Positions 5,474 through 47,111 of a stretch of 64,000 nucleotides of DNA are shown here, piece after piece; the stretch's first letter is position 1; every line of letters starts with the position of its first letter. The stretch is from positions 23,970,189-24,034,188 of the forward strand of contig OZ024931.1 of assembly GCA_964017235.1 (NCBI GenBank), written 5' to 3'. The notes below the pieces were generated by a model that had not been told where the DNA came from, ran no database searches, and saw only the letters and a list, made by a program, of their open reading frames with translations. The DNA is from Sabellastarte sp. h YS-2021. Taxonomy: Eukaryota; Annelida; Polychaeta; Sabellida; Sabellidae. Made by a program: the position numbers and the translations under genes.

Positions 5474-5747
5474 ACAAGAGGAGAGTGCCCGTGAACGGGC
5501 ACTGTGTCAGCTGACTGAATGTTTTTGATTTGTGATGGTGATAATGAGAGGAAAGCATAATTATCAGGGAAAGGGCTGTACAGAAATACAGTAAATGGTA
5601 ACTGAACAGCATGTTCGAAAGATATTCCGAAGCTGACAGAAGGAAAGGACAAAAAAGTTGTGCCCTGCAAATGGTATTATGAAATAAAGTAACAAGGTAA
5701 TTGTTTAAGTGTAAAAAGTAGGTTAAAAATATTTAAAGAAATACTAT

Positions 5748-6566
5748 AAATGCAATATCCTCGTTCGACCATGAAGAAGGGATCCAAAGGTCAAATCTGA
5801 CCATACCAAAAGATTCCCAGCCAAAGAATTTAGGATGGTTTACCATCCCAAACCTGTCGGACCAATAATAAGTGAGTCATAGGCACTTTTTAAGTTTGGC
5901 TATCCTTGTTTGACCTTGACGGAGGGGTCTAAGGTCAAATCCGACCACACAAAAAAATTCCCAGCCCATGATTTCCTGTAGCTTGTTTACCATCCCAAAC
6001 CTGTAGGACCAATAATAAGCGAGTTATAAGCAATTGTAAGTTTGGCTATCCTCAATTGACCTTGAAGGAGGGGTCCCAGGTCAAATCTGACCACACCAAA
6101 AGAATCCCAGCCCATGATTTCCTATATGTTGGTTTACCATCCCAAACCTCCAAGACCAATAATACGCGAGTTATAAGCACTTTAAGTTTGGCTATCTTCG
6201 TTTGACCTGGAAGGAGGGGTCTAAGGTGAAATCCGACCACACCAAAAGATTCCCAGCCCATGATTTTCTATAGGTTGGTTTTCCATTCCAAACCTCTAGG
6301 ACCAATAATAAGCGAGTTATAAGCACTTTTAAGTTTGGCTATCCTCATTTGACCTTGAAGGAGGGGTCCAAGGTGAAATCCGACCACACCAAAAAATTCC
6401 CAGCTCATGATTTTCTATAGGTTGGTTTTCATTCCAAACCTCTAGGACCAATAATAAGCGAGTTATAAGCACTTTTATGTTTGGCTATCCTCATTTGACC
6501 TTGAAGGAGGGTTCCAAGGTCAAATCGGACCATATTAACAGATTCCCAGCCCATGATTTCCTACAG
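5748..6566 (+). repeat. 147-bp satellite, six units inside A1
   Basis: The units start near 5760, 5905, 6045, 6192, 6338 and 6482 with 'tttggctatcctcgtttgacc', and each carries paired TTTGACCTT and AAGGTCAAA blocks. The monomer is the same as in element B, but these copies have their own variants, such as 'ccaggtcaaatctgaccacaccaaaagaatccc'. Confidence 0.9.
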
Positions 6567-8930
6567 GTTGGATACAATGATTTACTCAACAGTGAGAACC
6601 TGAAAGAAGCTATTGCTCAGCTATGCCATGACATAGAGGTCTGCAATTTCACTATGTTATAGCTGACCAAAACGTCTGTGAATAACATATTTAACAAAAT
6701 GCTCTAAATGTAATAGTTTTCAAGTTACAACTGATTTACTCAAGAGTGAGAACCTCAAAGTAACTATTACTCAGCTATGCAATGAGCTACATGTCTGAAT
6801 TTTTGCTCTGTTATAGCTGACCTAAAAGTAGGTGAACAACATATTCAAGCAAAATACTGTAAATGCAATAGTTTTCAAGTTACAACTGATTTACTCAATA
6901 GTGAGAACCTGAAAATAGCTATTGCTCCGCTATGCCACGAGCTATAGGTCTGTAATTTCACTATGTTATAGCTAACCCAAAAGTAGGTGAACAATATATT
7001 TTAACAAAATACTCCAAATGCAATATTTTTCAAGTTATAGCCGATTTACTCAACAGTCAGTGCCTGAGAATAGCTATTGCTCAGTTGTGCCATGAGCTAC
7101 AGGTCTGTAATTTCACTATGTTATAGCTGGCCCAAAAGTAGCTGAATAACATATTTGCACAAATTTCTGTAAAGGCAATAGTTTTCCAATTACAACTGAT
7201 TTACTCAACAGTGAGAACTTCAAAGTAGCTATTACTCAGCTATGCAATGAGCCACAGGTCTGGAACTTCACTATGTTATAGCTGACCCCAAAATAGGTGA
7301 ATAACATATTGCAACAAAATACTCTAAATGCAATAGTTTCCAAGTTATAAGTGATTTACTCAACAGTGATAACCTAAAAGTAGCTATTACTCAGCTATGC
7401 CATGAGCTACAGGTCTGAAATTTTACTATGTTATAGCTGACCCCAAAGTAGCTGAATAACATATTTATACGAAATTCTCTAAATGCAATAGTTTTCAAAT
7501 TATAAGTGATTTACTCAACATTGAGAACTTCAAAGTAGCTATTACTCAGCTATGCAATGAGTCACAGGTCTGGAACTTCACTATGTTATAGCTGACCCCA
7601 AAATAGGTGAATAACATATTGAAACAAAATACTCTAAATGCAATAATTTCCAAGTTATAAGCAATTTACTCAACAGTGATAACCTCAAAGTAGCTATTAC
7701 TCAGCTATGCCATGAGCTACAGGTCTGAAATTTTACTATGTTATAGCTGACCCAAAAGTAGGTGAACAACATATTTAAGCAAAATACTGTACATGCAATA
7801 GTTTTCAAGTTACAACTGATTTACTCAATAGTGATGACCTAAAAGTAGCTATTACTCAGCTATGCCATGAGCTACAGGTCTGAAATTTTACTATGTTATA
7901 GCTGACCCAAAAGTAGCTGAATAACATATTTATACTAAATTCTCTAAATGCAATAGTTTTGCAATTACAACTGATTTACTCAAGAGTGAGAACCTCAAAG
8001 TAGTTATTACTCAGCTATGCAATGAGCTACAGGTCTGAAATTTCACTATGTTATAGCTGACCCAAAAGTAGGTGAACAACATATTTAAGCAAAATACTGT
8101 AAATGCAATAGTTTTGAAGTTACAACTGATTTACTCAATAGTGATGACCTAAAAGTAGCTATTACTCAGCTATGCCATGAGCTACAGGTCTGAAATTTTA
8201 CTATGTTATAGCTGACCCAAAAGTAGCTGAATAACATATTTATACGAAATTCTCTAAATGCAATAGTTTTCCAATTACAACTGATTTACTCAATAGTGAG
8301 AACTTTAAAGTAGCTATTACTCAGCTATGCCATGACCTACAGATCTGAAATTTCACTATGTTATAGCTGGCCCCAAAGTAGCTGAATAACCTATTTATAC
8401 GAAATTCTCTAAATGCAATAGGTTTTAAGTTACAAGTGATTTACTCAATAGTGAGAACTTCAAAGTAGCTATTACTCAGCTATGCAATGAGCCACAGATC
8501 TGAAACTTCTCTATGTTATAGCTGATCCCAAAATAGGTGAATAATATATTGCAACAAAATACTGTAAATGCAATAGTTTCCAAGTTATAAGCGATTTACT
8601 CAACAGTGATAACCTAAAAGTAGCTATTACTCAGCTATGCCATGAGCTACAGGTCTGAAATTTTACTATGTTATAGCTGACCCAAAAGTAGCTGAATAAC
8701 ATATTTATACGAAATTCTCTAAATGCAATATTTTTGAAGTTATAAGCGATTTACTCAACAGTGATAACCTAAAAGTAGCTATTACTCAGCTATGCCATGA
8801 GCTACAGGTCTAAAATTTTACTATGTTATAGCTGACCCAAAAGTAGCTGAATAACATATTTGTACGAAATTCTCTAAATGCAATAGTTTTTAAGTTACAA
8901 GTGATTTTACTCATGATGGAAGTTACTGAA
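6567..8930 (+). repeat. 155-bp satellite, about 16 units inside A1
   Basis: The unit includes 'gatttactcaacagtgagaa', 'gctattactcagctatgcc', 'ctacaggtctg', 'ttcactatgttatagctga' and 'aaatgcaatagttttcaagtta'. Spacing is about 155 bp. The first and last units are the most diverged, as expected for unequal exchange within an array. Confidence 0.9.
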
Positions 8931-9495
8931 AAGCCCAAAAGTAGCTATTGCTCACTTAGCTATTGAGACAGGCACCCAACTTACTCACCATATTGTAGCT
9001 ATGAAAAAAGTAGCTGAATAACATATTTTAACAAAATGCTCTAAATGCAACACTTTTCAAGTTATAAATGATTTTGTGCATGATTTCATGAATTTTAATG
9101 CATTAAAAATTATTAAAAAAAATTATTTAAAAAAAAGTAAGACAGATCCAGGTCTCATACTCACACAAGAGAATCTACCTGTGGCCTAGTACATATATGC
9201 AAGATATGAGAGAAATCCCTGCAATAGTCACTGAGAAAATTGTGATTAAGTGTTGAAATTTTCACACTTTTGGTGGGGGTACCCCCCTTGTAATGTCTCT
9301 AGCAAACAGACGAACAGACAGATTTGCATGCCTTGAACAATTTTTCATCCTCGATAGATAAGGTATCTTTTAAAAAAACAGCACGTCTCTAGGCCTTGTA
9401 GTTTTGGAGGAGAAGTTGTTCACGCGGACGCGTACGCCCACGCCGCAGAGTGACGACATAATGTCAGCTGACTGACAAGTCAGCTGACATAAAAA

Positions 9496-10540
9496 GGTAC
9501 TGGACAAATCTGCAAGAAATAAGACAACACTTTTTAAACAGTGAATTAAGTTAACGCTACTATAAATTGTGTGCTATGGATAGTTATACAGAGCAGAGTT
9601 TATATGAGAAGAACTCAAACGAAATTTTTGGGACAAAGGAACACAACTGGTGGACTAAAATAAATTTCTAAGCATAATCTGGTCTATCATGTCTGACAGG
9701 GTTAAAATTACAAATATATCTTATCTCTTATCACAGAGCTCTAAATTATCAATTGCAGATAACTCAATGCCCAAAAAATATGTTCTGGAGTAATCTACCA
9801 CAACAGTACACAAGATGCCTCATGCCAGAGTGTCCCAAAACACAAATAATCTGCCACATTGGAATATCAAAATTAAAATACACATAACGGTGAATTTTAC
9901 AAAATAGAAAATTAAATTGTATCCATATGCAAGTCAAAGGTCAAACAGAAGTGCACTGATGAATATTTTTGACCTTTCAGTTAGGCTTGCTCAAGGCCCA
10001 AATTTGTACCAAGGGCCTATTGAAAATATTTTAACAAAGCACTAACAAAGTATTAATAAAGCACTCTCACATGCTGGATAAAGTAAGCTCACCAGACAGT
10101 TTATCATGGCATTATGTAAATGCCAGTATATGTAAGAGTGCATTTTGCAAACTGAATAAAGTGCATTTTTTGATTGATTACAACAATACTATCTTGAGCC
10201 TTAAAGAAGCCCACATGATAGTTACACTACAACTAGTTGTTTGCACAACAAATGGACAGAACTTTTTCATGTTTTTGTTCAAGTAAAGTTTCGTTATGGC
10301 CTTTCATTTTTGTAACTTATTGTAACTGCACTAACCTAGGACAAAGGCTATCCTCTTAATTTCTAAAAAAAAAAAAAAAAAAAAAAAAGAATTATGGGAA
10401 CATATATCTAAAAATTTCTAGAGTCTATCTTATTGAAGAATTTGTAAGTTCTAACACAATATCTTTAATACAATTTTTTTTAAATGTGGCACTTATATTA
10501 CAGTAATATTTATTTGCAGTAATTGGTCACATTGCAACTG
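9496..10540. other. No gene recognised
   Basis: AT-rich sequence with one 71-residue ORF (10071-10286) that shows no domain or splice context. An A25 homopolymer follows at about 10366-10389. Confidence 0.5.
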
Positions 10541-10544
10541 ACAC

Positions 10545-10745
10545 CAACAAACACCTCAAAACCCATCTCTTCAATTCCAGTTTCCCAGCTTAGTCTCCTT
10601 CCCTCTTGGTCACACCCACAACTCTGTATTACTGACCTTCAACGCTCCTCGACTCTCCTTATGATAAATGATTTTTGTTAACTAGCGCAATGAGGTCCCC
10701 TTTGTGGGGAAGATATTGTGCCTGCAAAGCAGTAGATTAGATTAG
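10545..10745 (+). mobile_element. LINE 3' end fragment with ATTAG tail
   Basis: It starts in the last codons of a CR1/L2-type ORF2 (HLKTHLFNSSFPA, then stop) and runs through a short 3' UTR to a tail of repeated ATTAG. The same 3' UTR occurs in reverse at 14856-15008, and that copy is interrupted by a MITE. This fragment preserves the uninterrupted 'gactaagctgggaaact' sequence, so it serves as the empty-site reference for the MITE. Confidence 0.8.
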
Positions 10746-16816: not shown

Positions 16817-17519
16817 CTGAGAAAACACCAAAATTATTAATTTAGGTCTATTGTCACTTTGGCTACAATTGTTTTCAGTCCTTGTGTTGTATTTTAAACT
16901 CGCTGAAATGCAAGAGTGTTGCCAATGACAATCATGGATCAGTATTCTCCATACTGTTTAGTGCCAAGTTGAGGTGTATGGGAAATATAGCAGTATTGGT
17001 CAAATTTCTTTTGAGTTAACTTGTCAAAAATAGCATCAGAGATGCCCGTACCCCACAGCCTAGGGAAATATTTTCAACACCATGAGATACAGAAGCACTG
17101 TACCAGTACAAAGTTCAGGATACTTTCAGAGCACTATCAGTTATATAAAGTTCCAAAAAATGTTTAAATGCAGAAAATAATGTTTAAAAGAAAGATAATG
17201 CATGTAAAGATGAAGTATTAAAACAAGCCAATTCAATAACAAGATGACAGCATTAATCAGCAAACTAAAATTCAACATTCTTTATCTACATCTGCATGGC
17301 CGAATTATGGTTTAGATGTTTTGAATATTACCATGCATACAGAAGTGGTAATACATTTAATGAATGCTTATGTGTGGTGTTAGAGTAAAATCTGTGGCTC
17401 ACTTGATGAAATTCTATCTCTTACAATGGGAAGTTATGAAAGTAAAATTCTTAATAAATTCTAATATGAATTAACAGTGCTTAATCTGCATCAAAAGACA
17501 GACCCAAAGGTGCAACAAG

Positions 17520-18245
17520 ATTTTAAAGGTCAAGGTCACTATGACAAGGTCAAAGGTCAAATTAAGGTCGCACCATGATAATACACACCTATGGCCCCTG
17601 ACTAATGTCCCTACCAAGTATCAACTTCCTACACCTTACGGTTTCTGAGATATAGCCTGGACAAGATTTTATAGGCCAAGGTCACTACGGCAAGGTCAAA
17701 GGTCAAATCCTGATCAGACCATGACGCTGCACACCTACACCCCCTAACCAATGTCCCTGCCAAATATCAACTTCCTACACCTTACAGTTTCCGAGATATA
17801 GCCCGGACAAGATTTTATAGGTCAAGGTCACTACGGCAAGGTCAAAGGTCAAATCAAGGTCAGACCATGACGTTGCACAACTACACCCACTAACCAATGT
17901 CCCTACCAAGTATCAACTTCCTACACCTTACGGTTTCTCAGATATAGCCCGGACAAGATTTTCAAACTCGAGGTCACTACGGCAAGGTCGAAGGTCAAAT
18001 CAAGGTCAGACCATGATGTTGCACAACTACACCCCCTAACCAATGTCCCTACCAAGTATCAACTTCCTACACCTTACGGTTTCCGAGATATAGCCCGGAC
18101 AAGATTTTCAAACTCAAGGTCACTACGGCAAGGTCAAAGGTCAAATCAAGGTCAGACCATGACGTTGCACACCTACACCCCCTAACCAATGTCCCTACCA
18201 AGTATCAACTTCCTACACCTTACGGTTTCTGAGATACAGCCCGGA
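17520..18245 (+). repeat. 146-bp tandem array with AGGTCAAAGGTCA in most units
   Basis: AGGTCAAAGGTCA starts at 17547, 17693, 17839 and 18131. A one-base variant (AGGTCGAAGGTCA) starts at 17984. Spacing is 145-147 bp. Other unit landmarks are 'accatgacgttgcacacctac', 'ccaatgtccctaccaagtatcaac' and 'gagatatagcccggacaag'. Confidence 0.9.
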
Positions 18246-18352
18246 CAAACTTTTTCCCACCGCCCGCCCACCCGCCCGCCCGACAGGACGCCTGCCCGCC
18301 CGCCCGCCCATCCGGACACCATGGGTGAAAACAATACCCCAACAGCCCTTAA

Positions 18353-19175
18353 AGCCCATTGCACACTAGCGCGGCGCGGCTAAATAAAATAGAAATAATG
18401 GCAGTAGTTCACTACTTGTACATATGTGCGGCGCGGCAGCTAGCGGTGCGGCGCGGATTTTTCTATTTAGAAAATTTTCTATTTTTAAAAAAAAACGCGC
18501 GGTTTTTTCTCTGTTTTACCCAAGTTTTCATGGATATTAGGATTTTCCACATATTTAAAATTGTAGTGTATCACAGAATTCTACACAAATATATTAATTG
18601 GAAAACAAAATGCAAGCACACAGGCTCATTGTGAAGGGATTAGCTGCTGGCAGATAGATCACAAAATATGATGTGTGTCAATATAGACACAGGAAAGGGT
18701 TTAATTTAATGAAGATTGCAATTAACAGTAATTCTAGAAGGGACACACTGGCCAAGGGTCTTGTTTGTAGATAGATTAAGTACTTAAATGGAGGAAGGGA
18801 TGTCAAGTTAGGTGTGTGGCAATATATATAAACAAAGCACAGCCAGAATTTAATTGAAAGGGGGTGTAATCACTAGTATTATAAAAAGGACACTGGTCAA
18901 GTACAAGGCTCTTCATTGTGAAGGGATTAAATTGCATGTAAGGTTATGATAGGTGTGGAAATGTACTGTGGGGTATTAGATGTTTAATTATATGTGATTA
19001 GTTTAACTATTGTAGCCACTTTGCTGTAGTTTAATTTTTTTTTTTAATTTACTGAAAACCGCTGGGAAAAATCGCCCAAATGTGCAAAGTAAAGAAAATT
19101 CACCTACTCAGCATGTAGTAAAAATCGTACCGCGCCGCACCGCGCCGCACCGCGCCGCGCAAATGTGCAACGACC
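18353..19175. mobile_element. TTAA-flanked MITE, 823 bp, with GCGGCGCGG termini
   Basis: TTAA lies at 18349-18352 and 19176-19179, and the uninterrupted target is visible in C2 (ACAGCCCTTAAGGGCTGT). The termini are inverted: TTGCACACTAGCGCGGCGCGG on the left and, reversed, TTGCACATTTGCGCGGCGCGG on the right. Extra GCGGCGCGG words lie just inside each end (18430-18456 and 19129-19158). The AT-rich interior carries no transposase. The exact TTAA duplication suggests piggyBac-type mobilisation (inference). Confidence 0.9.
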
Positions 19176-19192
19176 TTAAGGGCTGTGGGGTA

Positions 19193-31424: not shown

Positions 31425-31489
31425 TGTCCACATGCATAACCCTCACTGGTTACCTGTTATACATCAGATTAAATGTAAACTAGACAAAA
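31425..31489 (+). mobile_element. LINE relic, left half (cut by element B)
   Basis: The plus frame reads HMHNPHWLPVIHQIKCKL, the 'LHWLPV..RI.YKL' block near the end of CR1/L2-type ORF2. The expected continuation (LVYK.LNG) is found 11.6 kb away at 43090, directly after the right end of element B. Confidence 0.75.
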
Positions 31490-31714
31490 GTTTTTGTACA
31501 CAAAAACAAAGCGTCCCTACAGCTTTTAAGTTTTATAAGAAATGCTAAAGGACCAATGTGAAGAGGTAAATGTTATTGGTGAAGAGAAATTCTCCTGAAA
31601 GGACCATGTTAGGGTCACAAGAGTGATCTTAAAACGAAAAAAGCAATCAGTGCCTGTGAACAGGTTCTGTATCAGCTGACTGTGTCTTTTAAGCTGCAAA
31701 GTAGAAGAAGCATG

Positions 31715-33190
31715 TTTAGGTTTGGCTATGCTCGTTTGACCTTGAATGAGAGGCCCAAGGTCAAATCCGTCCACACCAGAAGATTCCCAGCACATGATTT
31801 CCTACATGTTGGTTTCACATCCCAAACCTCTAGGACTAATAATAATCGAGTTATCGAACTTTTAAGTTTGGCTATGCTCGTTTGACCTTGAAGGAGAGGC
31901 CCAAGGTCAAATCGGACAACACCAAAAGATTCCCAGCCCATGATTTCCTATATGTTTGTATACCATCCAAAACCTCTAGGACCAATAATAAGCGAGTTAT
32001 AAGCACTTTTCAGTTTGGCTATGCTCATTTGACCTTGAATGAGAGGCCCAAGGTCAAATGCGACCACACCAGAAGATTCCCAGCACATGATTCCCTATAT
32101 GTTGGTATACCATACCAATCCTCTAGGACAAATAATAAGCGAGTTATAAGCACTTTTAAGTTTGGCTATCCTCGTTTGACCTTGAAGAAGAGGCCCAAGG
32201 TCAAATCCGACCACACCAAAAGATTCCCAGCCCATGATTTCCTATATGTTGGTATACCATCACAAACCTCTAGAACCAATAATAAGCGAGTTACAAGCAC
32301 TTTTAAGTTTGGCTATACTCGTTTGACCTTGAAGGAGGGGCCCAAGGTCAAATCCGACCACATCCGAAGATTCCCAGCACATGATTTACTGTATGTTGGT
32401 ATACCATCCCAAACCTCTAGGACCAATAATAAGTGAGTTATAAGCACTTTTAAGTTTGGCTATGCTCGTTTCACCTTGAAGAAGAGGCCCAAGGTCAAAT
32501 CCGACCACACCAAAAGATTCCCAGCCCATGACTTCCTATATGTTGGTATACCATCCCAAAGCTCTAGGACCAATAATGAGCAAGTTATAAGCACTTTTAA
32601 GTTTGGCTATGCTCATTTGACCTTGAAAGAGAGGCCCAAGGTCAAATCCGACCACACCAAAAGATTCCCAGCCCATGGTTTGCTATATGTTGGTATACCA
32701 TCCCAAACCTCTAGGACCAATAATAAGCGAGTTATAAGCACTTTAAACTTTGCCTATCCTCGTTTGACCTTGAAGGAGGGGCCCAAGGTCAAATGCGACC
32801 ACACCAGAAGATTCCCAGCCCTTGATTTCCTACATGTTGGTATACCATCCCAAACCTCTAGGACCAATAATAAGCGAGTTATAAACACTTTTAAGTTTGG
32901 CTATGCTTGTTTGACCTTGAAGAAGAGGCCCAAGGTCAAATCTGACCACACCAAAAGATTCCTAGCCCATGATTTCCTATAGGTTGGTATACCATCCCAA
33001 ACCTCTAGGACCAATAATAAGCGAGTTATAAGCACTTTTATGTTTCGTTATGCTCGTTTGACCTTGAAGGAGGGGCCCAAGGTCAAATCCGACCACACCA
33101 GAAGATTCCCAGCCCATGATTTCCTACATGTTGGTATACCATCCCAAACCTCTAGGACCAATAATAAGCGAGTTCTAAGCACTTTTAAAG
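31715..33190 (+). repeat. 147-bp satellite, first part of the array in B (about 10 units)
   Basis: The homogeneous units each contain TTTGACCTTGAA, a short GGAGAGGCCC spacer and AAGGTCAAATCC, then 'gaccacaccaaaagattcccag', 'catgatttcctatatgttgg', 'tctaggaccaataataagcg' and 'agttataagcacttttaag'. Since 147 is 49 codons, one plus-strand frame stays open over long stretches (for example 31882-32436). The array continues at 39444 after the nested insertion. Confidence 0.95.
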
Positions 33191-33191
33191 G

Positions 33192-34427
33192 TCATAGGAA
33201 GTATTTTCAAATCATTCATTAGTGATTACATATACATATGTAAGTTCAATTTCTGTGAAAAAAGATGCGTCTGGACAAGGTTACATGGTATATTCAATCA
33301 CTTTCTGGCTGTTTTTCAAGATTTTTACAACTGTCGCCATTATTTTTCACTTGACAACTCCCGTAGAAAATACTAGCCTTGACGTCACAGGTTCATGACA
33401 ATGTAAACAAACTATTATTTCCTTAAGCCTTTTAATACATACATATATATTTAAAAGATTGCATAATGTGTTTTTATGAAGTTTATTTGTTTATAAGACA
33501 TCAGTCTGCCACAGTAAATTTTTGAAATAGCCTTCAGAACATCTTTTATTTTTGTTCTCAAATAAAAAATATTTAGAGAGGTATTAAGCAAGTTGCATAA
33601 AAATCACCAAACAATGCAGTCAACCAGGTTCAACTCTGAGATGAATTTTGATAGTTATTTTTTTCAATTTTGAAAACACTATTGCCAGGAGATGAAATAA
33701 ATACAACATAAATGTCTTTAGAACTGGGCCTCAAGCAAGGATAAATCATATATGTTCTCCAAATTAGTTTCCCATAAAAACTGTAAACAATACTGCTTTC
33801 ATAGTATACATAATGCGTCTAGCCATCTAGTGTTGATTACAGTTCCCCTAAACACATATCCTTTTTTTTGGTCTCAACAAAGGCTTAAATTGAGAATAAA
33901 ATGTCACCAACTAATTTCCAAAACTTTAAATTATCCAAACTTAAGGCCAAGAAATACTGAACTAATATCTTAAGGAAAACTCATATACTGAATTATTTCA
34001 TAAACTGATAATGTAAAAGTTAGAACTTCAAACATGATTCTTTCAGAATAAATTCAATAAATTTGACTACAACAGCATGCTTTTATAAATTATTAATGCA
34101 AATGAAAACAAATTGTGTATTTTGATTTCACTTTATATCATGCCTTTTCTTGATAGAAATGCCGGTGATTAAAGGCAAAAAAACAGTATCCAGTAAGTTC
34201 AAATGACCACTTTTGAATTTATCAAGAGATTCTTAGTTTTGTGTAAATTTATCTAACTTGAAAGGCTACTTTCTCATCACAGTTTAAAAACCTGGAAAAA
34301 AATGATGGAAGGAGGCAAAATCTCATACATATGTTTACGCTTTCTGCATTCCAAGACAAGCCTACTTACAGTATATCTGTGTTTGTTAGAACTGTCAGTG
34401 ATTAAAAGTTAGGTAAAACTTGAGAAA
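33192..34427. other. Left unique part of the TTAA element
   Basis: AT-rich sequence with no gene. The 73-residue ORF at 33752-33973 shows no domain. Confidence 0.5.
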
Positions 34428-34719
34428 ACAAGAGGAGAGTGCCCGTGAACGGGCACTGTGTCAGCTGACTGAATGTTTTTGATTTATGATGGTGATAATG
34501 AGAGGAAAGCATAATTATCAGGGAAAGGGCTGTACAGAAATACAGTAAATGGTAACTGAACAGCATGTTTGAAAGATATTCTGAAGCTGACAGAAGAAAA
34601 GGACAAAAAAGTTGTGCCCTGCAAATGGTATTATGAAATAAAGTAACAAGGTAATTGTTTAAGTGTAAAAATAGGTGAAAAATATTTAAAGAAATACTAT
34701 AAATGCAATATCCTCGTTT

Positions 34720-35515
34720 GACCATGAAGAAGGGGTCCAAAGGTCAAATCTGACCATACCAAAAGATTCCCAGCCAAAGAATTTAGGATGGTTTACCATC
34801 CCAAACCTCTCGGACCAATAATAAGTGAGTCATAGGCACTTTTTAAGTTTGGCTATCCTTGTTTGACCTTGACGGAGGGGTCCAAGGTCAAATCCGACCA
34901 CACAAAAAAATTCCCAGCCCATGATTTCCTGTAGCTTGTTTACCATCCCAAACCTGTAGGACCAATAATAAGCGAGTTCTAAGCAATTGTAAGTTTGGCT
35001 ATCCTCAATTGACCTTGAAGGAGGGGTCCCAGGTCAAATCTGACCACACCAAAAGAATCCCAGCCCATGATTTCCTATATGTTGGTTTACCATCCCAAAC
35101 CTCCAAGACCAATAATACGCGAGTTATAAGCACTTTAAGTTTGGCTATCTTCGTTTGACCTGGAAGGAGGGGTCTAAGGTGAAATCTGACCACACCAAAA
35201 GATTCCCAGCCCATGATTTTCTATAGGTTGGTTTTCCATTCCAAACCTCTAGGACCAATAATAAGCGAGTTATAAGCACTTTTAAGTTTGGCTATCCTCA
35301 TTTGACCTTGAAGGAGGGGTCCAAGGTGAAATCCGACCACACCAAAAAATTCCCAGCTCATGATTTTCTATAGGTTGGTTTTCATTCCAAACCTCTAGGA
35401 CCAATAATAAGCGAGTTATAAGCACTTTTATGTTTGGCTATCCTCATTTGACCTTGAAGGAGGGTTCCAAGGTCAAATCGGACCATATTAACAGATTCCC
35501 AGCCCATGATTTCCT
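34720..35515 (+). repeat. 147-bp satellite, six units inside A2
   Basis: Unit for unit it matches the six units of A1, including private variants such as 'cctccaagaccaataatacgcgag' in the third or fourth unit. This shows the two arrays were copied as a block. Confidence 0.9.
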
Positions 35516-38330
35516 ACAAGTTGGATACAATGATTTACTCAACAGTGAGAACCTGAAAGAAGCTATTGCTCAGCTATGCCATGACATAGAGGTCTGCAAT
35601 TTCACTATGTTATAGCTGACCAAAACGTCTGTGAATAACATATTTAACAAAATACTCTAAATGTAATAGTTTTCAAGTTACTACTGATTTACTCAAGAGT
35701 GAGAACCTCAAAGTAACTATTACTCAGCTATGCAATGAGCTACATGTCTGAATTTTTGCTCTGTTATAGCTGACCTAAAAGTAGGTGAACAACATATTTA
35801 AGCAAAATACTGTAAATGCAATAGTTTTCAAGTTACAACTGATTTACTCAATAGTGAGAACCTGAAAATAGCTATTGCTCTGCTATGCCATGAGCTATAG
35901 GTCTGTAATTTCACTATGTTATAGCTAACCCAAAAGTAGGTGAACAATATATTTTAACAAAATACTCCAAATGCAATATTTTTCAAGTTATAGCCGATTT
36001 ACTCAACAGTCAGTGCCTGAGAATAGCTATTGCTCAGTTGTGCCATGAGCTACAGGTCTGTAATTTCACTATGTTATAGCTGACCCAAAAGTAGCTGAAT
36101 AACATATTTGCACAAATTTCTGTAAAGGCAATAGTTTTCCAATTACAACTGATTTACTCAACAGTGAGAACTTCAAAGTAGCTATTACTCAGCTATGCAA
36201 TGAGCCACAGGTCTGGAACTTCACTATGTTATAGCTGACCCCAAAATAGGTGAATAACATATTGCAACAAAATACTCTAAATGCAATAGTTTCCAAGTTA
36301 TAAGTGATTTACTCAACAGTGATAACCTAAAAGTAGCTATTACTCAGCTATGCCATGAGCTACAGGTCTGAAATTTTACTATGTTATAGCTGACCCAAAA
36401 GTAGCTGAATAACATATTTATACTAAATTCTCTAAATGCAATAGTTTTCAAATTATAAGTGATTTGCTCAACATTGAGAACTTCAAAGTAGCTATTACTC
36501 AGCTATGCAATGAGTCACAGGTCTGGAACTTCACTATGTTATAGCTGACCCCAAAATAGGTGAATAACATATTGAAACAAAATACTCTAAATGCAATAAT
36601 TTCCAAGTTATAAGCGATTTACTCAACAGTGATAACCTCAAAGTAGCTATTACTCAGCTATGCCATGAGCTACAGGTCTGAAATTTTACTATGTTATAGC
36701 TGACCCAAAAGTAGGTGAACAACATATTTAAGCAAAATACTGTACATGCAATAGTTTTCAAGTTACAACTGATTTACTCAATAGTGATGACCTAAAAGTA
36801 GCTATTACTCAGCTATGCCATGAGCTACAGGTCTGAAATTTTACTATGTTATAGCTGACCCAAAAGTAGCTGAATAACATATTTATACTAAATTCTCTAA
36901 ATGCAATAGTTTTGCAATTACAACTGATTTACTCAATAGTGAGAACCTCAAAGTAGTTATTACTCAGCTATGCAATGAGCTACAGGTCTGAAATTTTACT
37001 ATGTTATAGCTGACCCAAAAGTAGGTGAACAACATATTTAAGCAAAATACTGTAAATGCAATAGTTTTGAAGTTACAACTGATTTACTCAATAGGGATGA
37101 CCTAAAAGTAGCTATTACTCAGCTATGCCATGAGCTACAGGTCTGAAATTTTACTATGTTATAGCTGACCCAAAAGTAGCTGAATAACATATTCATACGA
37201 AATTCTGTAAATGCAATAGTTTTCCAATTACAACTGATTTACTCAATAGTGAGAACTTCAAAGTAGCTATTACTCAGCTGTGCCATGACCTACAGATCTG
37301 AAATTTCACTATGTTATAGCTGGCCCAAAAGTAGCTGAATAACATATTTATACGAAATTCTCTAAATGCAATAGTTTTGCAATTACAACTGATTTACTCA
37401 ATAGTGAGAACCTCAAAGTAGCTATTACTCAGCTATGCAATGAGCTACAGGTCTGAAATTTTACTATGTTATAGCTGACCCAAAAGTAGGTGAACAACAT
37501 ATTTAAGCAAAATACTGTAAATGCAATAGTTTTCAAGTTACAACTGATTTACTCAATAGTGATGACCTAAAAGTAGCTATTACTCAGCTATGCCATGAGC
37601 TACAGGTCTGAAATTTTACTATGTTATAGCTGACCCAAAAGTAGCTGAATAACATATTTATACGAAATACTCTAAATGCAATAGTTTTCCAATTACAACT
37701 GATTTACTCAATAGTGAGAACTTTAAAGTAGCTATTACTCAGCTATGCCATGACCTACAGATCTGAAATTTCACTATGTTATAGCTGGCCCAAAAGTAGC
37801 TGAATAACATATTTATACGAAATTCTCTAAATGCAATAGGTTTTAAGTTACAAGTGATTTACTCAATAGTGAGAACTTCAAAGTAGCTATTACTCAGCTA
37901 TGCAATGAGCCACAGATCTGAAACTTCACTATGTTATAGCTGATCCCAAAATAGGTGAATAACATATTGAAACAAAATACTGTAAATGCAATAGTTTCCA
38001 AGTTATAAGCGATTTACTCAACAGTGATAACCTAAAAGCAGCTATTACTCAGCTATGCCATGAGCTACAGGTCTGAAATTTTACTATGTTATAGCTGACC
38101 CCAAAGTAGCTGAATAACATATTTATACGAAATTCTCTAAATGCAATAGTTTTGAAGTTATAAGTGATTTACTCAACAGTGATAACCTAAAAGTAGCTAT
38201 TACTCAGCTATGCCATGAGCTACAGGTCTAAAATTTTACTATGTTATAGCTGACCCAAAAGTAGCTGAATAACATATTTATACGAAATTCTCTAAATGCA
38301 ATAGTTTTTAAGTTACAAGTGATTTTACTC
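35516..38330 (+). repeat. 155-bp satellite, about 19 units inside A2
   Basis: Same monomer as in A1. Extra units relative to A1 lie in the second half of the array, around 37190-37680, where the 'ttttgcaattacaactg' and 'ttttccaattacaactg' variants alternate. Confidence 0.9.
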
Positions 38331-39099
38331 ATGATGGAAGTTACTGAAAAGCCCAAAAGTAGCTATTACTCACTTAGCTATTGAGACAGGCACCCAACTT
38401 ACTCACCATATTGTAGCTATGAAAAAAGTAGCTGAATAACATATTTTAACAAAATGCTCTAAATGCAACACTTTTCAAGTTATAAATGATTTTGTGCATG
38501 ATTTCATGAATTTTAATGCATTAAAAATTATTAAAAAAATTTATTAAAAAAAAAGGAAGACAGATCCAGGTCTCATACTCACACAAGAGAATCTACCTCT
38601 GGCCTAGTACATATATGCAAGATATGAGAGAAATCCCTGCAATAGTCACTGAGAAAATTGTGATTAAGTGTTGAAATTTTCACACTTTTGGTGGGGGTAC
38701 CCCCCTTGTAATGTCTCTAGCAAACAGACAAACAGACAGATTTACATGCCTTGAACAATTTTTCATCCTTGATAGATAAGGTATCTTTTAAAAAAAACAG
38801 CACGTCTCTAGGCCTTGTAGTTTTGGAGGAGAAGTTGTTCACGCGGACGCGTACGCGTACGCCCACGCCGCAGAGTGACGACATAATGTCAGCTGACTGA
38901 CAAGTCAGCTGACATAAAAACAGCATCTAGAAAAAATAGAGGCTAGTCAGCTTTTTTGGCAAAGGAAAATGTTATCTTCCTTCAGTTTGGAAATATATAC
39001 ACTATATCTCCAACTACACGGAACTTCATTATGAACCTGTGACGTCATCAATCATCTACTACGAGAAAAACAATATGTCCACTTTTTACTCCATGTTCG

Positions 39100-39290
39100 G
39101 TTCTCGCCTCCAACCTCTGTGGCCGCCGGTTCGAATATCGGGCCGGGCGCTTCATGTTGGAAAGTTGGTAGTTACTTGCCGATGCCCGGTGGTTTACAGT
39201 GCACTATGCACTGGTTTATTCCACCTGTAAACTACCCGTCGCAATATGACCCTGGCTGTTGAACGCGACGTAAAGCAACAAATAAATAAA
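39100..39290 (+). mobile_element. tRNA-headed SINE with a 15-bp target duplication
   Basis: The 191-bp insertion is flanked by TTTACTCCATGTTCG (39085-39099) and TTTACTCCACGTTCG (39291-39305), one mismatch apart. The head carries a box-B-like GGTTCGAATATC (39128-39139). The 3' part has 'aaactacccgtcgcaatatgacc', 'ttgaacgcgacgtaaagc' and the AAATAAATAAA tail. It shares its 3' half with copies at 3.0 and 58.5 kb. Confidence 0.88.
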
Positions 39291-39447
39291 TTTACTCCAC
39301 GTTCGTGATATTTATTTTTATAATGCTATTTATGGCTCTTGTACCATATATTTCTTAAAATAAACCACATTTTCATTCTTATAGGTTGTTTGTCTACTGA
39401 ATGAAGTTAACTTCATAATTTTTGTGAAAAATGTTTCCTATGACCTT

Positions 39448-42400
39448 TAAGTTTGGCTATGCTCGTTTGACCTTAAACGAGAGGCCCAAGGTCAAATACG
39501 ACCACACCAGAAGATTCCCAGCCCATGATTTCCTATATGCTGGTATACCATCACAAACCTGTAGGACCAATAATAGGTGAATTATAACCACTTTTAAGCT
39601 TGGCTATGCTCATTTCACCTTCAATGAGAGGCCCAAGGTCAAATGCGACCACACCAGAAGGTTCCCAGCCCATGATTTTGTATATGCTGGTATACCATCC
39701 CAAACCTCTAGGACCAATAATAAGCGAGTTCTAATCACTTTTAAGTGTGGCTATGCTCGTTTGACCTTGAACGTGGGGCCCAAGCTCAAATCCGACCACA
39801 CCAGAAGGTTCCCAGCCAATGATTTCCTACATGTTGGTTTACCATCCCAAAGCTCTAGGACCAATAATAAGCGAGTTATGAGCATTTTTATGTTTGGCTA
39901 TCCTCATTTGACCTTCAAGGAGGGGCCCAAGGTCATATCCGACCACACCAAAACATTCCCAGCCCATGATTTCCTATATGTTGGTATACCATCCCAAAGC
40001 TCTAGGACCAATAATAAGCGAGTTATAAGCACTTTTAAGTTTGGCTATGCTCGTTTGACCTTGAAGGGGGGCCCAAGGTCAAATGCGACCACAGCAGAAG
40101 ATTCCCAGCACATGATTTCCTACATGTTGGTATACCATCCGAAACCTCTAGGACTAATAATATGCGAGTTATAAGCACTTTTCAGTTTGGCTATCCTCGT
40201 TTGACCTTGAAGGAGAGGCCCAAGGTCAAATCTGACCACACCAAAAGATTCCCAGCCCATGGTTTCCTACATATTGGTATACCATCCCAAACCTCTAGGA
40301 CCAATAATAAGCGAGTTATAAGCACTTTAAACTTTGCCTATCCACGGTTGACCTTGAAGGAGGGGCCCAAGGTCAAATCTGACCACACCAGAAGATTCCC
40401 TGCACATGATTTCCTATATGTTGGTCTACCATCCCAAAGCTCTACGACCAATAATAAGCGAGTTATAAGCACTTTTAAGTTTGGCTATCCTTGTTTGACC
40501 TTGAACGAGAGGCACAAGGTCAAATGCAACCACACCAAATGATTCCCAGCACGATTTCCTATATGTCAGTATACCATCCCAAAGCTCTACGACCAATAAT
40601 AAGCGAGTTATAAGCACTTTTAAGTTTGGCTATCCTTGTTTGACCTTGAACGAGAGGCCCAAGGTCAAATCCGACCACATCAGAAGATTCCCAGCACATG
40701 ATTTCCTATATGTAGGTATACCATCCCAAAGCTCTACGACCAATAATAAGCAAGTTATAAGCACTTTTAAGTTTGGCTATCCTCGTTTGACCTTAAAGGA
40801 TGGGCCCAAGGTCAAATGCAACCACACCAGAAGATTCCCAGCACATGATTTCCTATATGTAGGTATACCATCCCAAAGCTCTACGACCAATAATAAGCGA
40901 GTTATAAGCACTTTTAAGTTTGGCTATCCTCATTTGACCTTGAACGAGAGGCCCAAGGTCAAATCCAACCACACCAGAAGATTCCCAGCACATGATTTCC
41001 TATATGTAGGTATACCATCCCAAAGCTCTACGACCAATAACAAGCGAGTTATAAGTACTTTTAAGTTTGGCTATCCTCGTTTGACCTTGAAGGATGGGCC
41101 CAAGGTCAAATGCGACAACACCAGAAGATTCCCAGCACATGATTTCCTATATGTCGGTATACCATCCCAAAGCTCTACGACCAATAATAAGCGAGTTATA
41201 AGGACTTTTAAGTTTGGCTATCCTCGTTTGACCTTGAAGGATGGGCCCAAGGTCAAATCCGACCACACCAGAAGATTCCCCGCACATGATTTCCTATATG
41301 TTGGTATACCATCCCAAACCTCTAGGACCAATAATAAGCGACTTATAAGCACTTTCAACTTTGCCTATGCTCGTTTGACCTTGAAGGAGGGGCCCAAGGT
41401 CAAATGCAACCACACCAGAAGATTCCCAGCCCATGATTTTCTACATGTCGGTATACCATCCCAAACCTCTAGGACCAATAATAAGCGAGTTATAAGCACT
41501 TTTAAGTTTGGCTATCCTCATTTGACCTTGAACAAGAGGCCCAAGGTCAAATCCAACCACACCAGAAGATTCTCAGCCCATGATTTCCTATATGTTGGTA
41601 TACCATCCCAAACCTCTAGGACCAATAATAAGCGAGTTATAAGCACTTTTAAGTTTGGCTATCCTCGTTTGACCTTGAACGAGAGGCCCAAGGTCAAATC
41701 CAACCACACCAAAAGATTCCCAGCCCATGATTTCCTATATGTTGGTATACCATCCCAAACCTCTAGGACCAATAATAAGCGAGTTATAAGCATTTTTATG
41801 TTTGGCTATCCTCGTTTGACCTTGAAGGAGAGGCCCAAGGTCAAATCCGACCACACAAGAAGATTCCCAGCCCATGATTTCCTATATGTCGGTATACCAT
41901 CCCAAACCTCTAGGACCAATAATAAGCGAGTTATAAGCACTTTTAAGTTTGGCTATCCTCGTTTGACCTTGAACGAGAGGCCCAAGGTCAAATCCAACCA
42001 CACCAAAAGATTCCCAGCCCATGATTTCCTATATGTTGGTATACCATCCCAAAGCTCTAGGACCAATAATAAGCGAGTTATAAGCATTTTTATGTCTGGC
42101 TATCCTCGTTTGACCTTGAACGAGAGGCCCAAGGTCAAATCCGACCACACCAGAAGATTCCCAGCCCATGATTTCCTACATGTTGGTATACCATCCCAAA
42201 GCTCTAGGACCAATAATAAGCGACTTATAAGCACTTTTAAGTTTGGCTATGCTCGTTTGACCTTGAAGGGGGGGCCCAAGGTCAAATGCGACCACACCAG
42301 AAGATTCCCAGCACATGATTTCCTATATGTTGGTATACCATCCCAAACCTCTAGGACCAATAACAAGCGAGTTATAAGCACTTTTCAGTTTGCCTATCCC

Positions 42401-42672
42401 CCTTTGACCTTGAAGGAGACGTCCAAGGTCAAATCTGACCACACCAAAAGATTCCCAGCCCATGGTTTCCTATATGTTGGTATACCATCCCAAACCTCTA
42501 GGACCAATAATAAGCGAGTTATAAGCACTTTAAACTTTGCCTATCCTCGCTTGACCTTGAACGAGGGGCCCAAGGTCAAATCTGATCACACCAGAAGATT
42601 CCCAGCACATGATTTCCTATATGTTGGTATACCATCCCAAACCTCTACGACCAATAATAAGCGAGTTCAAGG
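39448..42672 (+). repeat. 147-bp satellite, second part of the array in B (about 22 units)
   Basis: This continues the array interrupted at 33190. A single frame remains open from 40640 to 42697 (14 units of 49 codons, for example FKFGYPRLTLKERPKVKS). Neighbouring units share private variants: 'agctctacgacc' dominates about 40430-41190, while 'acctctaggacc' dominates later units, showing local homogenisation. A one-base indel at about 40070 breaks the frame in an earlier unit. I regard the long ORF as a by-product of the period, not a gene. Confidence 0.95.
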
Positions 42673-43076
42673 CTTAATCTTAGCAAAATTTTTATGAACT
42701 TATAATCAATCGCCCGTCAATCAGTCAATTATGGCCCGACTGATCCCAATATCGACTGGCGCCTAGATTCTTCCCCCAGGAATGTGCATACCAAATTTGG
42801 TTGACCCACACCCAGTACTTTCTGAGGAAATCTAGTGAAAAGGAAGTAAATTTTTTTTTGAATTTTTTATAATGTGACCTCGATAAAGGTCAAAGGTCAA
42901 ATTTATGCCTGTCAAAAAATTTCCCCACGCCTATAGAAGAACACTGCCACATATCATTTGGATAGGCCTAATAACAAGGGAGATATTCAAGGGAGACGAT
43001 AATGCGGCGGCGGCGGCGGCGGTTGACTGAAAACCGGGGGTGAAACCAATAAGCGTCCCCTTTTCAAGGGACGCTT
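42673..43076 (+). repeat. Right terminal segment of element B
   Basis: After the array come a unique 220 bp, one AGGTCAAAGGTCA (42887-42899), 'aacaagggagatattcaaggg', (CGG)6 at about 43003-43021 and the AAGCGTCCC hairpin. This is the same order of parts as at the right ends of A, C and D. Confidence 0.75.
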
Positions 43077-43370
43077 AATTAATTAAGTCTACTAGTATAT
43101 AAGACTTTGAATGGACAAGTACCATTATACTTAACATCAGTGATAAACTACCAGCAACACCAGTGTATTATAACATTGTCCAGAAAATTATATGCGTTAA
43201 TTCAATAAAAGTGAAATATGTATTAGTGGGTTATTGTGCCTTCAGATTTATAGAACCAAAGCACTAGAATCAAATACCAGATGATGTCAGAGGCACAAAG
43301 CTTCCACTGCACATCTTGAAGGAGAAACTAAAAACCCATTATTTCAAAGTGTATATTTTGAGACAAAGAG
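43077..43370 (+). mobile_element. LINE relic, right half
   Basis: The plus frames read LLVYKTLNGQVPLYLTSVIN just after the B terminus. Following a decayed stretch comes NQIPDDVRGTKLPLHILKEK, then LKTHYFKVYI, the C-terminal end of a CR1/L2-type ORF2. Several frameshifts and stops are present. It continues the block found at 31425-31489. Confidence 0.75.
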
Positions 43371-43913
43371 TAATCATCCTTTACCCTTAAATATAATTGC
43401 ATTGTACAAATGTTCTTATGGTATTATTATTACATCTAGACACTACTGCAAAACACAATATACAAAACCGGCCATCAGCCTCATGGTTATGAGCAAAATA
43501 TTGTCAACCCTTCTGCTAAAATTTCCTTTAACCTACATCAATGATGAACTTGATAAAATGTAACCAAGGACTTATTTTAGGATGACAAAGTTTGAATCTG
43601 TCTTCAACACTCTCAAAAAATGCATTGTTTCCAGTGGGATTTTAATTTTCCCCAGCCTTCTCAAAATAATATTTCCTTTTGGTTTTCATTCAGAATTGAT
43701 GACTGTGCTGAAAAGCTTCTGTCTTTGTCTTCAGAAGAGGACTAGCTTTTGATGGGATAATATCACATTCTCCCTGTGAAGGAATTGTGCTATCATGTTA
43801 ATATTTGTAAATATATTGAATCAGAATTAAACTCATCTTATTTACTTGTCTTTGTCACAAATACCAACCCTGTGACACACTAACAAACTAGATTGGGCCA
43901 ACTCGGCGCCAAC
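43371..43913. other. No gene recognised
   Basis: AT-rich sequence between the LINE relic and element D. No coding frame or repeat was recognised. Confidence 0.5.
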
Positions 43914-44090
43914 ATATCCCCAGACAGGTCATCACTCACGCCACAGGTTTTGATCGGGAATTTTTTAAAACATAATTACCCATTATTATATGAACTTCAG
44001 CACATCAATCTACTCTGTTTATATCTTCCAAGGAAGATGGTGTATCCCCAGACGCCGAATACATAACTCAAATTATATTTTCAATCTTCC

Positions 44091-44345
44091 TGCAATGATA
44101 ACTCTAAACCTATTTTCAAAGTATTTAAATGATTGATGATTGAATGTCCATTCTAAAATAATAATCCCAAAAGAGCATATCTGTTTCTATATTTGTTGAC
44201 AAATAAAATATTATTTTTAACTCAACTCATCATACTTTTCAATCTTCCTTCAAAGTATTTAAATGATTGATGATTCAATGTCCATTCTAAAATTCATAAT
44301 CCCAAAAGCGCATATCTGTTTCTATATTTGTTCACAAATAAAATA
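44091..44345 (+). repeat. Tandem duplication of about 128 bp in D
   Basis: 'tcaaagtatttaaatgattgatgatt', 'aatgtccattctaaaat', 'aatcccaaaag' and 'gcatatctgtttctatatttgtt' occur twice, at about 44117-44210 and 44250-44345, with few differences. Confidence 0.8.
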
Positions 44346-44889
44346 TTATTTAAAAAAAAATTATTTATATTATTATTTTATTATATTATTTTTAGAATTT
44401 GCAAATTGTTTTCAGTTATTCATTTCCTCTATACCTATATATGTGGTCCATATATATGCAACCTAAATATGTGACACAATCTCAGTTCTGACTCCCCTTT
44501 GTGTTATATGTAATGAAGCATCATTAAATACCTTTGTTTATTTAGTGTCACTCAATATAGCTGGAGGTCCCAGAGGTGGGTGGGGGGAATCCGGGTGGGG
44601 GATGCATAAATGGTAAACAAACAATCTATATAAAAGGGGTACTCAAATACAAAAAGAATTGAGAATTTTAAGTATGTGATTATCAACTGAAATGAGTTCA
44701 TAACTGTAGGAGCTGTGCCAAAATTAACTGAGGCAAGTTGAATAAAACTGGGCTAGTTGAGGGTTAAAAATCCCCTACTTTTACTACATAAGGATATAAT
44801 TTCATTAATATTGGGACTTAAAGCTCACTTAAAGTGTCCATTTTGTCTACTTGAATATGTTTAACCAGTTTCATTTTAAAAAGTTAAAA

Positions 44890-46840
44890 ACTCAGCAAGC
44901 AGAGGTATAACACACAAAAATAAGTTCTTAAAAGACTAAGATAGCCATAACATTATTAATATTCAAAATTTAAATAGACAGGCATTTCCTTTTAAAAATT
45001 CAAAGATTTCAGCTCTATAACCCACATAGTTTGACAGTTACTGGGCTTTAAAGTGGCATAATGTCCATAAATTGGGTTTCTGTGGGCATTTTACAATTGT
45101 TAAAGAGACCTTAGCAATTAAACAACAGATCTGAAACTTTTTGGGGGACATACATAACAAACAAAAATTATATATAATACAGTTTAAGACTTGTCACACT
45201 AAGCATTTCCAAATAACAGGGCAAAATACGGAAAAAATGTCCAAAAAGGCACTTGGGCGAGTGTCTATGGCCCTCATACACAGGTTAAATGTCTACTAAA
45301 AACCTTGATTTTCGGCATATGTAAAAAGGACATAATAATGCATTCCCAGATGGGATTTCAGCTCCATCAATCACATAGTTTAACAGTCACAGGGCTTAAA
45401 GGTGGTTAAAAAGTCCAAATATTGGGTCTCTGTGGGCCTTTTAGAGATCTCGATGTGGCTTTCAAATTAAAGCTTCAGACTTAAAATTTGTTACATACTA
45501 AGATTACACATAGAATATGTATCTAATAAAGTTTGAAACTTCTCAGACTTACCATTTCCAAGTTACAGAGCAAAATATGTGAAAAATGTCTTAAAAGGGT
45601 CACTCAGGTGGGTGTTTAAGGTCCTCATACACAGGTTAAATGTCTACTTGAAGCCTTGATTTTTGGCACATGTAAAAAGAACATAATAATGTATTCCCAG
45701 ATGAGATTTCAGCTCTATCAGTCACATAGTTTAACAGTCACAGGCCTTAAAATTGGCAAAAAGTCCAAATACTGGGTCTTTATGGGGCCTTCTAGAGACC
45801 TAAATGTGGCCTTCAAATTAAAGCCTCAGACTTAAAATTTGTCACATACTAAGATTACACATAGAATATGCATCTAATACAGTTTGAAACTTCTTAGACT
45901 TACCATTTCCAAGTTACAGGGCAAAATATGTGAAAAATGTCTAAAAATGGTCACTCGGGTGGGGATTTATGGTCCTCATACACAGGTTAAATGTCTTCTT
46001 AAAGCCTTAATTTTTGGCACATATATAAATAACATACTAATATCTTCCCAGATAGGATTTGAGCTCTATCAGTCACATAGTTTGACAGTCACAGGGCTTA
46101 AAAGTAGCAAAAAGTCCAAATATTGGGTCTTTGGGAGCCTTTTAGAGACCTCAATTTGACCTTCAAAATTAAAGCTTCAGACTTAAAATCTGTTACATAC
46201 TAAGATGACACACAGAATATATATCTAATACAGTTTGAAACTTCTCAGACTTACCATTTCCAAGTTACAGGGAAAAAGATGTGAAAAATGTCTTATAAGG
46301 GTCACTCGGGTGGGTGTTTATGGTCCTGATACACAGGTTAACTGTCTATTAAAGGCCTAAATGTTGGGGCACATATAAGAAAACACATAGATATATTCCC
46401 AGATGATATTTAACTTAGATGAGAGACATAGTTTGAAAGCTACAGTGCTTGAAAGTGGCAAAAAGTGCATAAATTGGGTCTCTGTGGGCACTTTTGAGAC
46501 CTTAAGTCGACCCCTTTGGGTAAACCTACAGCCCTAAAATTTTCTACAGACAAGGATTACATATCAAAGTTATACCTAGCGCAGTTTGAGACTCATCAGA
46601 ATTACCACTTCCAAATTATAGGGCAAAATATGTGAAAAATATAGCAAAAAATCCCCAAGTGGGGGTATTTATGGGCCTCAAACACAATTTTCTCCTCAAC
46701 TTAAAGTCGTGATTTTCGGCACATGTACTAAGAACATATTAATGTGTTGTCAGGTAAAATTTCAGCCAGCTGAGCATCATAGTTTGTGACCTACAGGGCT
46801 CTAAGTGGCCAAAAGTCCAATTTCTGACCTTAAGGTGGCC
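44890..46840 (+). repeat. Array of units of about 350 bp in D
   Basis: The landmark 'acataataatg.attcccagatg' recurs at 45330, 45681, 46032, about 46382 and about 46732. Units carry 'cagctctatcagtcacatagttt', 'gggtctctgtgggc' and 'ttccaagttacagggcaaaatatgtg'. About five to six units are present, and the outer ones are the most diverged. Confidence 0.85.
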
Positions 46841-46976
46841 ATAAGTTCTTTTTTACTGGGAGTTTAAGGTCACCTTAAAATAGGGATCTTCCTTTGGGCA
46901 CCCTTAACATGTGTACCAAGTTTGAAAAAAAAATATTAATTTGTTTTTGAGTTATCGCGTCCACAAGGAAATTTCT

Positions 46977-47025
<49 letters not shown>

Positions 47026-47029
47026 GACG
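46977..47029 (+). repeat. (CGG)n microsatellite, about 16 repeats
   Basis: An uninterrupted CGG run sits between 'aaatttcta' and 'cgcgacggacctg', immediately before the terminal hairpin of element D. A shorter (CGG)6 occupies the same relative place in element B. Confidence 0.95.
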
Positions 47030-47111
47030 GACCTGAATCCAATATATCCCCGACTTTCGTCTGGGGATATAATTAGCATCTTTTTTCTGACCAGTAATCA
47101 ATGGTATGAAT

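Follow-up and report, generated by a model that had tools for sequence, protein, structure and literature searches.

Four high-copy families of probable Helentron-type non-autonomous transposons in a sabellid worm genome

A 64,000-nucleotide stretch of the Sabellastarte sp. h YS-2021 genome (contig OZ024931.1, positions 23,970,189 to 24,034,188; hereafter the window) carries six copies of four elements, A to D. We propose, with high confidence, that these are four high-copy families of non-autonomous rolling-circle transposons of the Helentron/Helitron2 type (HINEs). This assignment is based on the nature of their ends, the ordered pairing of these ends, the T-rich flanks, three duplication-free empty sites (of B and D), and a RepHel (Rep/helicase) element, E, built on the same plan.

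All six copies lie on the minus strand. Read along that strand, each copy opens with a 5' hairpin formed by an arm and its inverse. A microsatellite-like tract rich in GC and a satellite-like tandem core follow, then a 3' arm and a second (3') hairpin lying 2-10 nt short of the end. The short tail that adjoins T is CTCTTG in A (and in E), CTAG in B and D, and CTA in C. The inverted arms at both ends measure 9-12 bp and are placed asymmetrically, about 0-2 nt from the 5' end and 18-31 nt from the 3' end, behind the second hairpin (A 31, B 29, C 18 and D 26 nt). The tract motifs are CGG, GCCC and ACGCGG, short and irregular in A and C2; the core units are 145-157 bp in most arrays and 351 bp in D, with about 5-22 units per array in the window. 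A to D are non-coding.

The hairpins and arms listed by the original prediction are present in the window at the positions it gave, and the terminal plan it ascribed to all four families is real; its left and right were swapped: for these minus-strand copies, the hairpin that it called 'right' is the one at the 5' end. The GCCC tract it named for C is C's own. Its D left end, described without a hairpin, does have one: the D 3' hairpin folds with one bulge. The copies and their parts are as follows.

5475..9490, minus strand: A1 copy, 5' end at 9490 and 3' end CTCTTG at 5475; 96% identical to A2; ends match genome copies
5485..5502, minus strand: A1 3' hairpin, 7,938 exact genome copies
5506..5515, minus strand: A1 3' arm (asymmetric terminal inverted repeat, ATIR)
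5756..8913, minus strand: A1 core, a 146 bp array at 5756-6571 and a 155 bp array at 6573-8913
9422..9447, minus strand: A1 microsatellite-like tract, GC-rich, following the 5' hairpin
9461..9490, minus strand: A1 5' hairpin (arm and inverse), 9,095 genome copies at <=2 mismatches
17031..19192, minus strand: C1 copy, with a TTAA-flanked insert interrupting its 5' hairpin; its 3' boundary is defined less exactly than those of the other families
21776..23069, minus strand: C2 copy, same plan without the insert of C1
31480..43078, minus strand: B copy (TT...CTAG), holding a nested insert at 33189-39446
31490..31507, minus strand: B 3' hairpin
31509..31517, minus strand: B 3' arm (ATIR)
31649..31690, minus strand: degraded A-type 3' end inside B, 81% identical to A over 42 bp
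31708..33188, minus strand: B core array part 1, 147 bp units
34429..38915, minus strand: A2 copy, nested in the TTAA-flanked insert inside B
39447..42667, minus strand: B core array part 2
43004..43022, minus strand: B (CGG)6 tract
43051..43078, minus strand: B 5' hairpin and terminal TT
43888..47072, minus strand: D copy (TT...CTAG)
43893..43912, minus strand: D 3' hairpin with one bulge, TTGGGCCAACTCGGCGCCAA
43914..43925, minus strand: D 3' arm (ATIR)
45004..46640, minus strand: D core array, 351 bp units
46978..47024, minus strand: D CGG tract
47044..47072, minus strand: D 5' hairpin plus the terminal TT (11,383 copies in the genome, <=2 mismatches)

A structure scan for an arm in a hairpin at one end and its inverse beside a second hairpin at the other recovered three minus-strand copies, A1, A2 and B, against a mean of 0.15 hits over 40 first-order Markov sequences; C1, C2 and D were missed in the window because their stems carry bulges or an insert. 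The scan also returned one further minus-strand hit and 28 plus-strand hits. The latter share a single 3' site, position 42886, immediately outside the B array, and have their 5' sites within the A/B satellite arrays, and are therefore satellite artefacts. DNA folding gave stems for all ten ends tested in A to E (-3.6 to -14.1 kcal/mol, energies without a shuffled control).

Copies, flanks and empty sites in the genome

The host genome (1.786 Gb in 647 contigs) was searched with all end patterns, each paired with a reversed-pattern control. Each end was found in 881 to 20,533 copies and no reversed pattern was found at all. For the 3' and 5' ends respectively, the counts are 7,938 (exact) and 9,095 (<=2 mismatches) in A, 881 and 988 in B, 20,533 and 16,071 in C, and 8,316 and 11,383 (5' at <=2 mismatches) in D, the two ends of a family not being strictly comparable because pattern lengths and mismatch limits differ between searches. 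At <=3 substitutions, the window holds no A to D 5' end beyond those of the known copies. As a rough upper estimate, A to D with nested sequence occupy 94-118 Mb, or 5-7% of the 1.79 Gb genome, a figure obtained from end counts multiplied by median listed-pair lengths, with every end treated as a full copy and nested sequence included.

Pairing was scored among the matches listed for each search (the first 100 places, all exact matches), with opposite-strand ends as the control and distance limits of 15 kb for A, 25 kb for B, 10 kb for C and 15 kb for D. Among these listed matches, a 5' end on the same strand and in the correct order accompanies 66 of 100 A 3' ends (median 4,240 bp, 59 distinct 5' ends, control 1), 47 of 55 B 3' ends on contig C1, not to be confused with the C1 copy (8,528 bp, 45 distinct, control 0), 54 of 98 C 3' ends (1,642 bp, 50 distinct, control 0) and 90 of 99 D 3' ends (3,240 bp, 84 distinct, control 2). 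The pairing is not wholly one-to-one, certain 5' ends serving several 3' ends; the listed D pairs cluster near 3.2 kb in length. The 3' ends stop at a constant base (8/8 A, 28/30 B and 30/30 D copies), beyond which the flanks differ.

The bases adjoining these ends are T-rich (a slash marks the element boundary). At the 3' side, A reads CTCTTG/TT in 8/8; the B end was located in 28 of 30 copies (all except L034 and L042), with CTAG/T in 28/28 and TT in 27/28; D reads CTAG/T in 30/30 and TT in 29/30, not all of them independent because a few copies sit in the same repeat. At the 5' side, A reads TTTTT/ATG in 6/6 and also in L093 and L095, B reads TT/AAG in 12/12 (L034 being a diverged end), and D begins after TT in 7/7 (L040 being a diverged end). 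C reads TTTT/T in 6/7, the exception being C2 with TTTG, a count that omits three diverged matches (L069 twice, L070) and two matches to the inner half of the palindrome (L034 and the window). With ends paired in order and strand and with T-rich flanks, the boundaries do fall at the arms and hairpins, as had been predicted.

Three insertions can be compared with their empty sites. First, D lies in a copy of the RepHel gene (L012/L116), where the filled site CATTGTTTA(TTATATCC...CTAG)TTTTGG corresponds to the empty CATTGTTTATTTTGG in three uninterrupted comparators, L014, L015 and L017; this D copy is longer than the stretch L113, and its 3' end is in L116. Second, B lies in D (L103/L046), with ATAATAA(TTAAGCG...CTAG)TGGG filled and ATAATAATGGG empty, the latter identical in 29/29 D pattern matches. 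Third, B lies in an E element (L105/L044 compared with L118), with GCATATTT(TTAAGCG...CTAG)TTCATTC filled and GCATATTTTTCATTC empty; E ends stand on both sides of B at contig C1:42.45 Mb (42452974 and 42461519). All three fit an element of the form TT...CTAG inserted between A and T (twice) or between T and T (once) with no duplication, if the elements begin with TT. The expected insertion between T and T thus holds for one site of the three.

Class of the elements and a gene-bearing family of the same plan

The DINE-1/HINE study of 2014 is reportedly the work of Thomas and co-workers, and the Helitron2 study of 2013 that of Bao and Jurka. Hairpin, arm, microsatellite, tandem core, arm and hairpin make up the standard HINE anatomy (PMC7492417, PMC4067079, PMC3627910). 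Eleven Cg_HINE families, some unrelated in all modules, are described from one oyster genome, Crassostrea gigas (Vojvoda Zeljko et al. 2020, PMC7492417). The view of the original prediction that such a co-occurrence is unusual is not supported.

A to D share with Cg_HINE (PMC7492417) a 5' subterminal inverted repeat, a complementary inverted repeat, a microsatellite, a satellite DNA-like core, a 3' subterminal inverted repeat and a palindrome, together with monomers averaging 140-180 bp, one or two arrays, and T-rich insertion without target-site duplication. The 5' repeat with its adjacent complement is seen in four 5' folds, the C1 copy being split by its insert; T-rich (TT) insertion without duplication is seen in the three B/D empty sites and in the flanks. 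The tract is GC-rich in A to D, whereas it consists mostly of 4-nt motifs such as GTCY in Cg_HINE; E has GTCY. The 351 bp unit of one family is unlike Cg_HINE, and the arrays of about 5-22 units in the window compare with mostly up to 5, the longest 29, in the oyster (PMC7492417). DINE-1/HINE elements (PMC4067079) are likewise non-coding, with subterminal inverted repeats bearing inverted repeats, a 3' stem loop, a TT target, a microsatellite and central repeats; the 3' arm is 18-31 nt from the end here and 38-60 nt in mite HINEs. Helitron2 (PMC3627910) also has hairpins at both ends and asymmetric terminal inverted repeats, the 5' arm 0-2 nt from its end within the 5' hairpin and the 3' arm preceding the 3' hairpin, at about 20-30 nt from the 3' end; A and C are just outside this range because their distances are 31 and 18 nt, and A to D, unlike Helitron2, are non-coding with satellite cores. 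Canonical Helitron1 (5'-TC, 3'-CTRR, no 5' hairpin and no terminal inverted repeats) does not describe elements with 5' hairpins and arms; B and D nevertheless end in CTAG. Our literature search found no paper tied to the exact families A to D; the sequences themselves were not compared with those in print, and we make no claim that they are undescribed. They are a known kind of element and, as far as seen here, new families.

The Helitron Rep domain PF14214 has 24 matches in the genome, in several diverged groups, one of which (L012, L014, L015 and L017) is about 99% identical. L015 encodes Helitron_like_N (PF14214, 1.2e-25) and DUF6570 (5.5e-14). At L009 the Rep domain is preceded by an OTU domain (5.5e-5, marginally above the cut-off). 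In L117, at 1560-2300, a RepHel frame upstream of the Rep domain has a cysteine-protease-like stretch (NDCGAYA), which may be Ulp1-like, followed by 63/126 bp coding repeats.

Around L015 lies the family E RepHel element (contig C3:168666692-168678957, about 12.3 kb). After T5/AGGTGGGTTGCGTGTAACCAACCCGCCT come a GTCY tract, a tandem array with 164-187 bp units and the RepHel gene; GCAACCCGCCT follows, then a weakly folding 3' hairpin and CTCTTG/TT. The element has a second, inner 5' end 600 bp inward of the first (L119 93 and 693), and L122, another RepHel copy, likewise has this inner end upstream, at a comparable spacing (6.9 vs 6.8 kb). A third RepHel stretch, L121, holds tandem core only; the 5' end of this contig C4 copy is unseen because the stretch lies inside the core. 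The E 5' hairpin has 3,979 genome copies and the E 3' end 3,075 (reversed patterns 0), and 26 of 28 listed 3' ends within range of the 5' list are paired with a 5' end (control 0). Since 23 of these pairs are less than 1.7 kb apart, E has both gene-bearing and short copies. At <=4 substitutions the E 5' hairpin was not found in the window, a search that covered the 5' end only. Among the 100 E 5' ends listed, 20 neighbouring pairs on one strand lie 0.43-1.1 kb apart, and close 5' doublets also occur in A (117 and 125 bp apart) and B (91 bp apart). Such doubled 5' ends are compatible with repeated 5' initiation or tandem insertion.

The last seven bases of E are those of A, and its arms are its own; with the same tail and T-run and a different arm, E may be considered a candidate partner of A. 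Of the termini predicted for an autonomous partner, E carries the plan and A's last bases and not the arms of A to D. A motif search of the A to D ends in the 24 RepHel loci (about 3.2-3.6 kb each) had two hits, the 5' end of D in L012 and the 3' end of A in L029. We rejected both as the RepHel elements' own ends, as uninterrupted copies identify them as insertions; the A insertion lies downstream of a RepHel fragment (L029 2397), and the uninterrupted copy (L028 2396) is 98% identical over 1,055 bp. Similarity also points to a C-like 3' part in L025 and an A-like piece in L030/L031. The authors of the oyster study could not connect the Cg_HINE families with autonomous elements (PMC7492417). 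Here a HINE plan tested across a genome stands beside a gene-bearing element built in the same way, which provides a link that was beyond the reach of that study.

We propose the following mechanism. A RepHel protein would nick at the junction of T and the 5' hairpin and displace one strand, halting at the 3' arm and hairpin. Base pairing between the two arms would then open up the 5' hairpin, as in the Helitron2 model (PMC3627910), and the displaced strand would be joined into a T-rich site. The arm and hairpin sequences differ by family while fold, spacing and end bases persist; what counts in the ends is therefore probably the fold together with the last few bases. The elements spread their satellite cores as passengers.

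Several points weigh against the Helentron assignment. Among the matches listed, no 5' partner accompanies 34 of the 100 A 3' ends or 44 of the 98 C 3' ends. The filled sites have two more T than the empty ones, and the extra T are assigned to the element; terminal Ts are part of the element, in variable number, in mosquito HINE families (PMC4067079). D in C (L064/L114/L115) gives no clean empty site, the joined flanks being about 2 nt longer than the C2 sequence; A was compared with an empty copy at one 3' junction only (L029 vs L028), and C by flanks only. We found no RepHel copy bearing the arms of any of the families A to D; E has arms of its own and resembles them in plan alone, apart from the last bases that it has in common with A. 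Both ends were read for one RepHel copy only, the second showing an inner 5' end and the third a core. In addition, the E RepHel was read without the last 2 kb of the gene (C3:168676137-168678199), and what sets Helentron sensu stricto apart from Helitron2 is a C-terminal AP endonuclease domain fused to RepHel.

Within the class, it is possible that each family has its own RepHel lineage reading its arm sequence, rather than one protein reading the fold and terminal bases. The PF14214 loci do fall into several diverged groups and the tails into three types (CTCTTG in A and E, CTAG in B and D, CTA in C); A and E, however, have the same tail with different arms. Ends having been read for one RepHel lineage, we find separate lineages plausible and lean slightly away from them. 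It is highly improbable that A to D are instead derivatives of a cut-and-paste DNA transposon, similar to miniature inverted-repeat transposable elements, with the short arms as ordinary terminal inverted repeats. Although inverted arms of 9-12 bp stand at both ends and TTAA-flanked insertions of another kind occur in the same window, the arms are asymmetric, none of the three clean empty sites has a duplication beyond the TT ambiguity, the B-in-D site (AATAATGGG) is unreadable as a TT duplication, and a RepHel gene lies within the same end plan. Least credible is that only the satellites are real units and the hairpins and arms are fold-prone array flanks spread by recombination or extrachromosomal circles: the cores are satellite-like and A and B have one in common, but end pairing, D lengths near 3.2 kb, the constant 3' stop base with differing flanks, and the empty sites contradict it. 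The Helentron class named by the original prediction is thus borne out by the boundaries, the flanks, the duplication-free empty sites and the RepHel element of the same plan.

Relations between A and B, and nested insertions

The four families were predicted to be unrelated, which we rejected for A and B. One satellite supplies the units of both, 146 bp in A and 147 bp in B (alignment score 351 vs 16 for shuffles; 86-87% identity over 831 bp), and an A-type 3' end sits 165 nt inside B's own 3' end. The unit comparison gave a weak score between A and C (29 vs 16 for shuffles) and no pair above the cut for the D core. A third array related to the A/B satellite lies at 959-1803 and is about 73-76% identical in its longest matches. 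A 157 bp satellite array of 6 units at 62893-63856 has no relation to the A to D cores above the cut.

The A-type segment is matched at <=6 edits in 30/30 sampled B copies, its hairpin stem degraded to a varying degree; the 5' region of B showed no A-like 5' end. This relic is either an A-type terminator that decayed and was bypassed, or an A fragment captured by a B-type element. New Helentron families may have arisen here by escape past a decayed terminator: B would be an A-type element whose own 3' arm and hairpin decayed, so that displacement ran on and new matching ends were fixed, leaving the old terminator about 165 nt inside the 30 sampled copies, with enzymes reading the fold and last few bases and not the arm sequence. 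We regard this scenario as doubtful; the relic is nevertheless a concrete, testable case for the birth of new Helentron ends.

Two TTAA-flanked insertions interrupt the copies.

33189..39446, strand unassigned: insert with TTAA on both sides and inverted ends AGGTCATAGGAA/TTCCTATGACCT, in the B core array, carrying A2
18353..19175, strand unassigned: 823 bp insert exactly at the central TTAA of the C1 5' hairpin

The first led us to reject B as a single 11.6 kb element, as had been proposed for 31480-43078. The (ACCGCGCCGC)3 tract beside the C1 right arm belongs to the second, whose ends bear GCGGCGCGG-type tracts.

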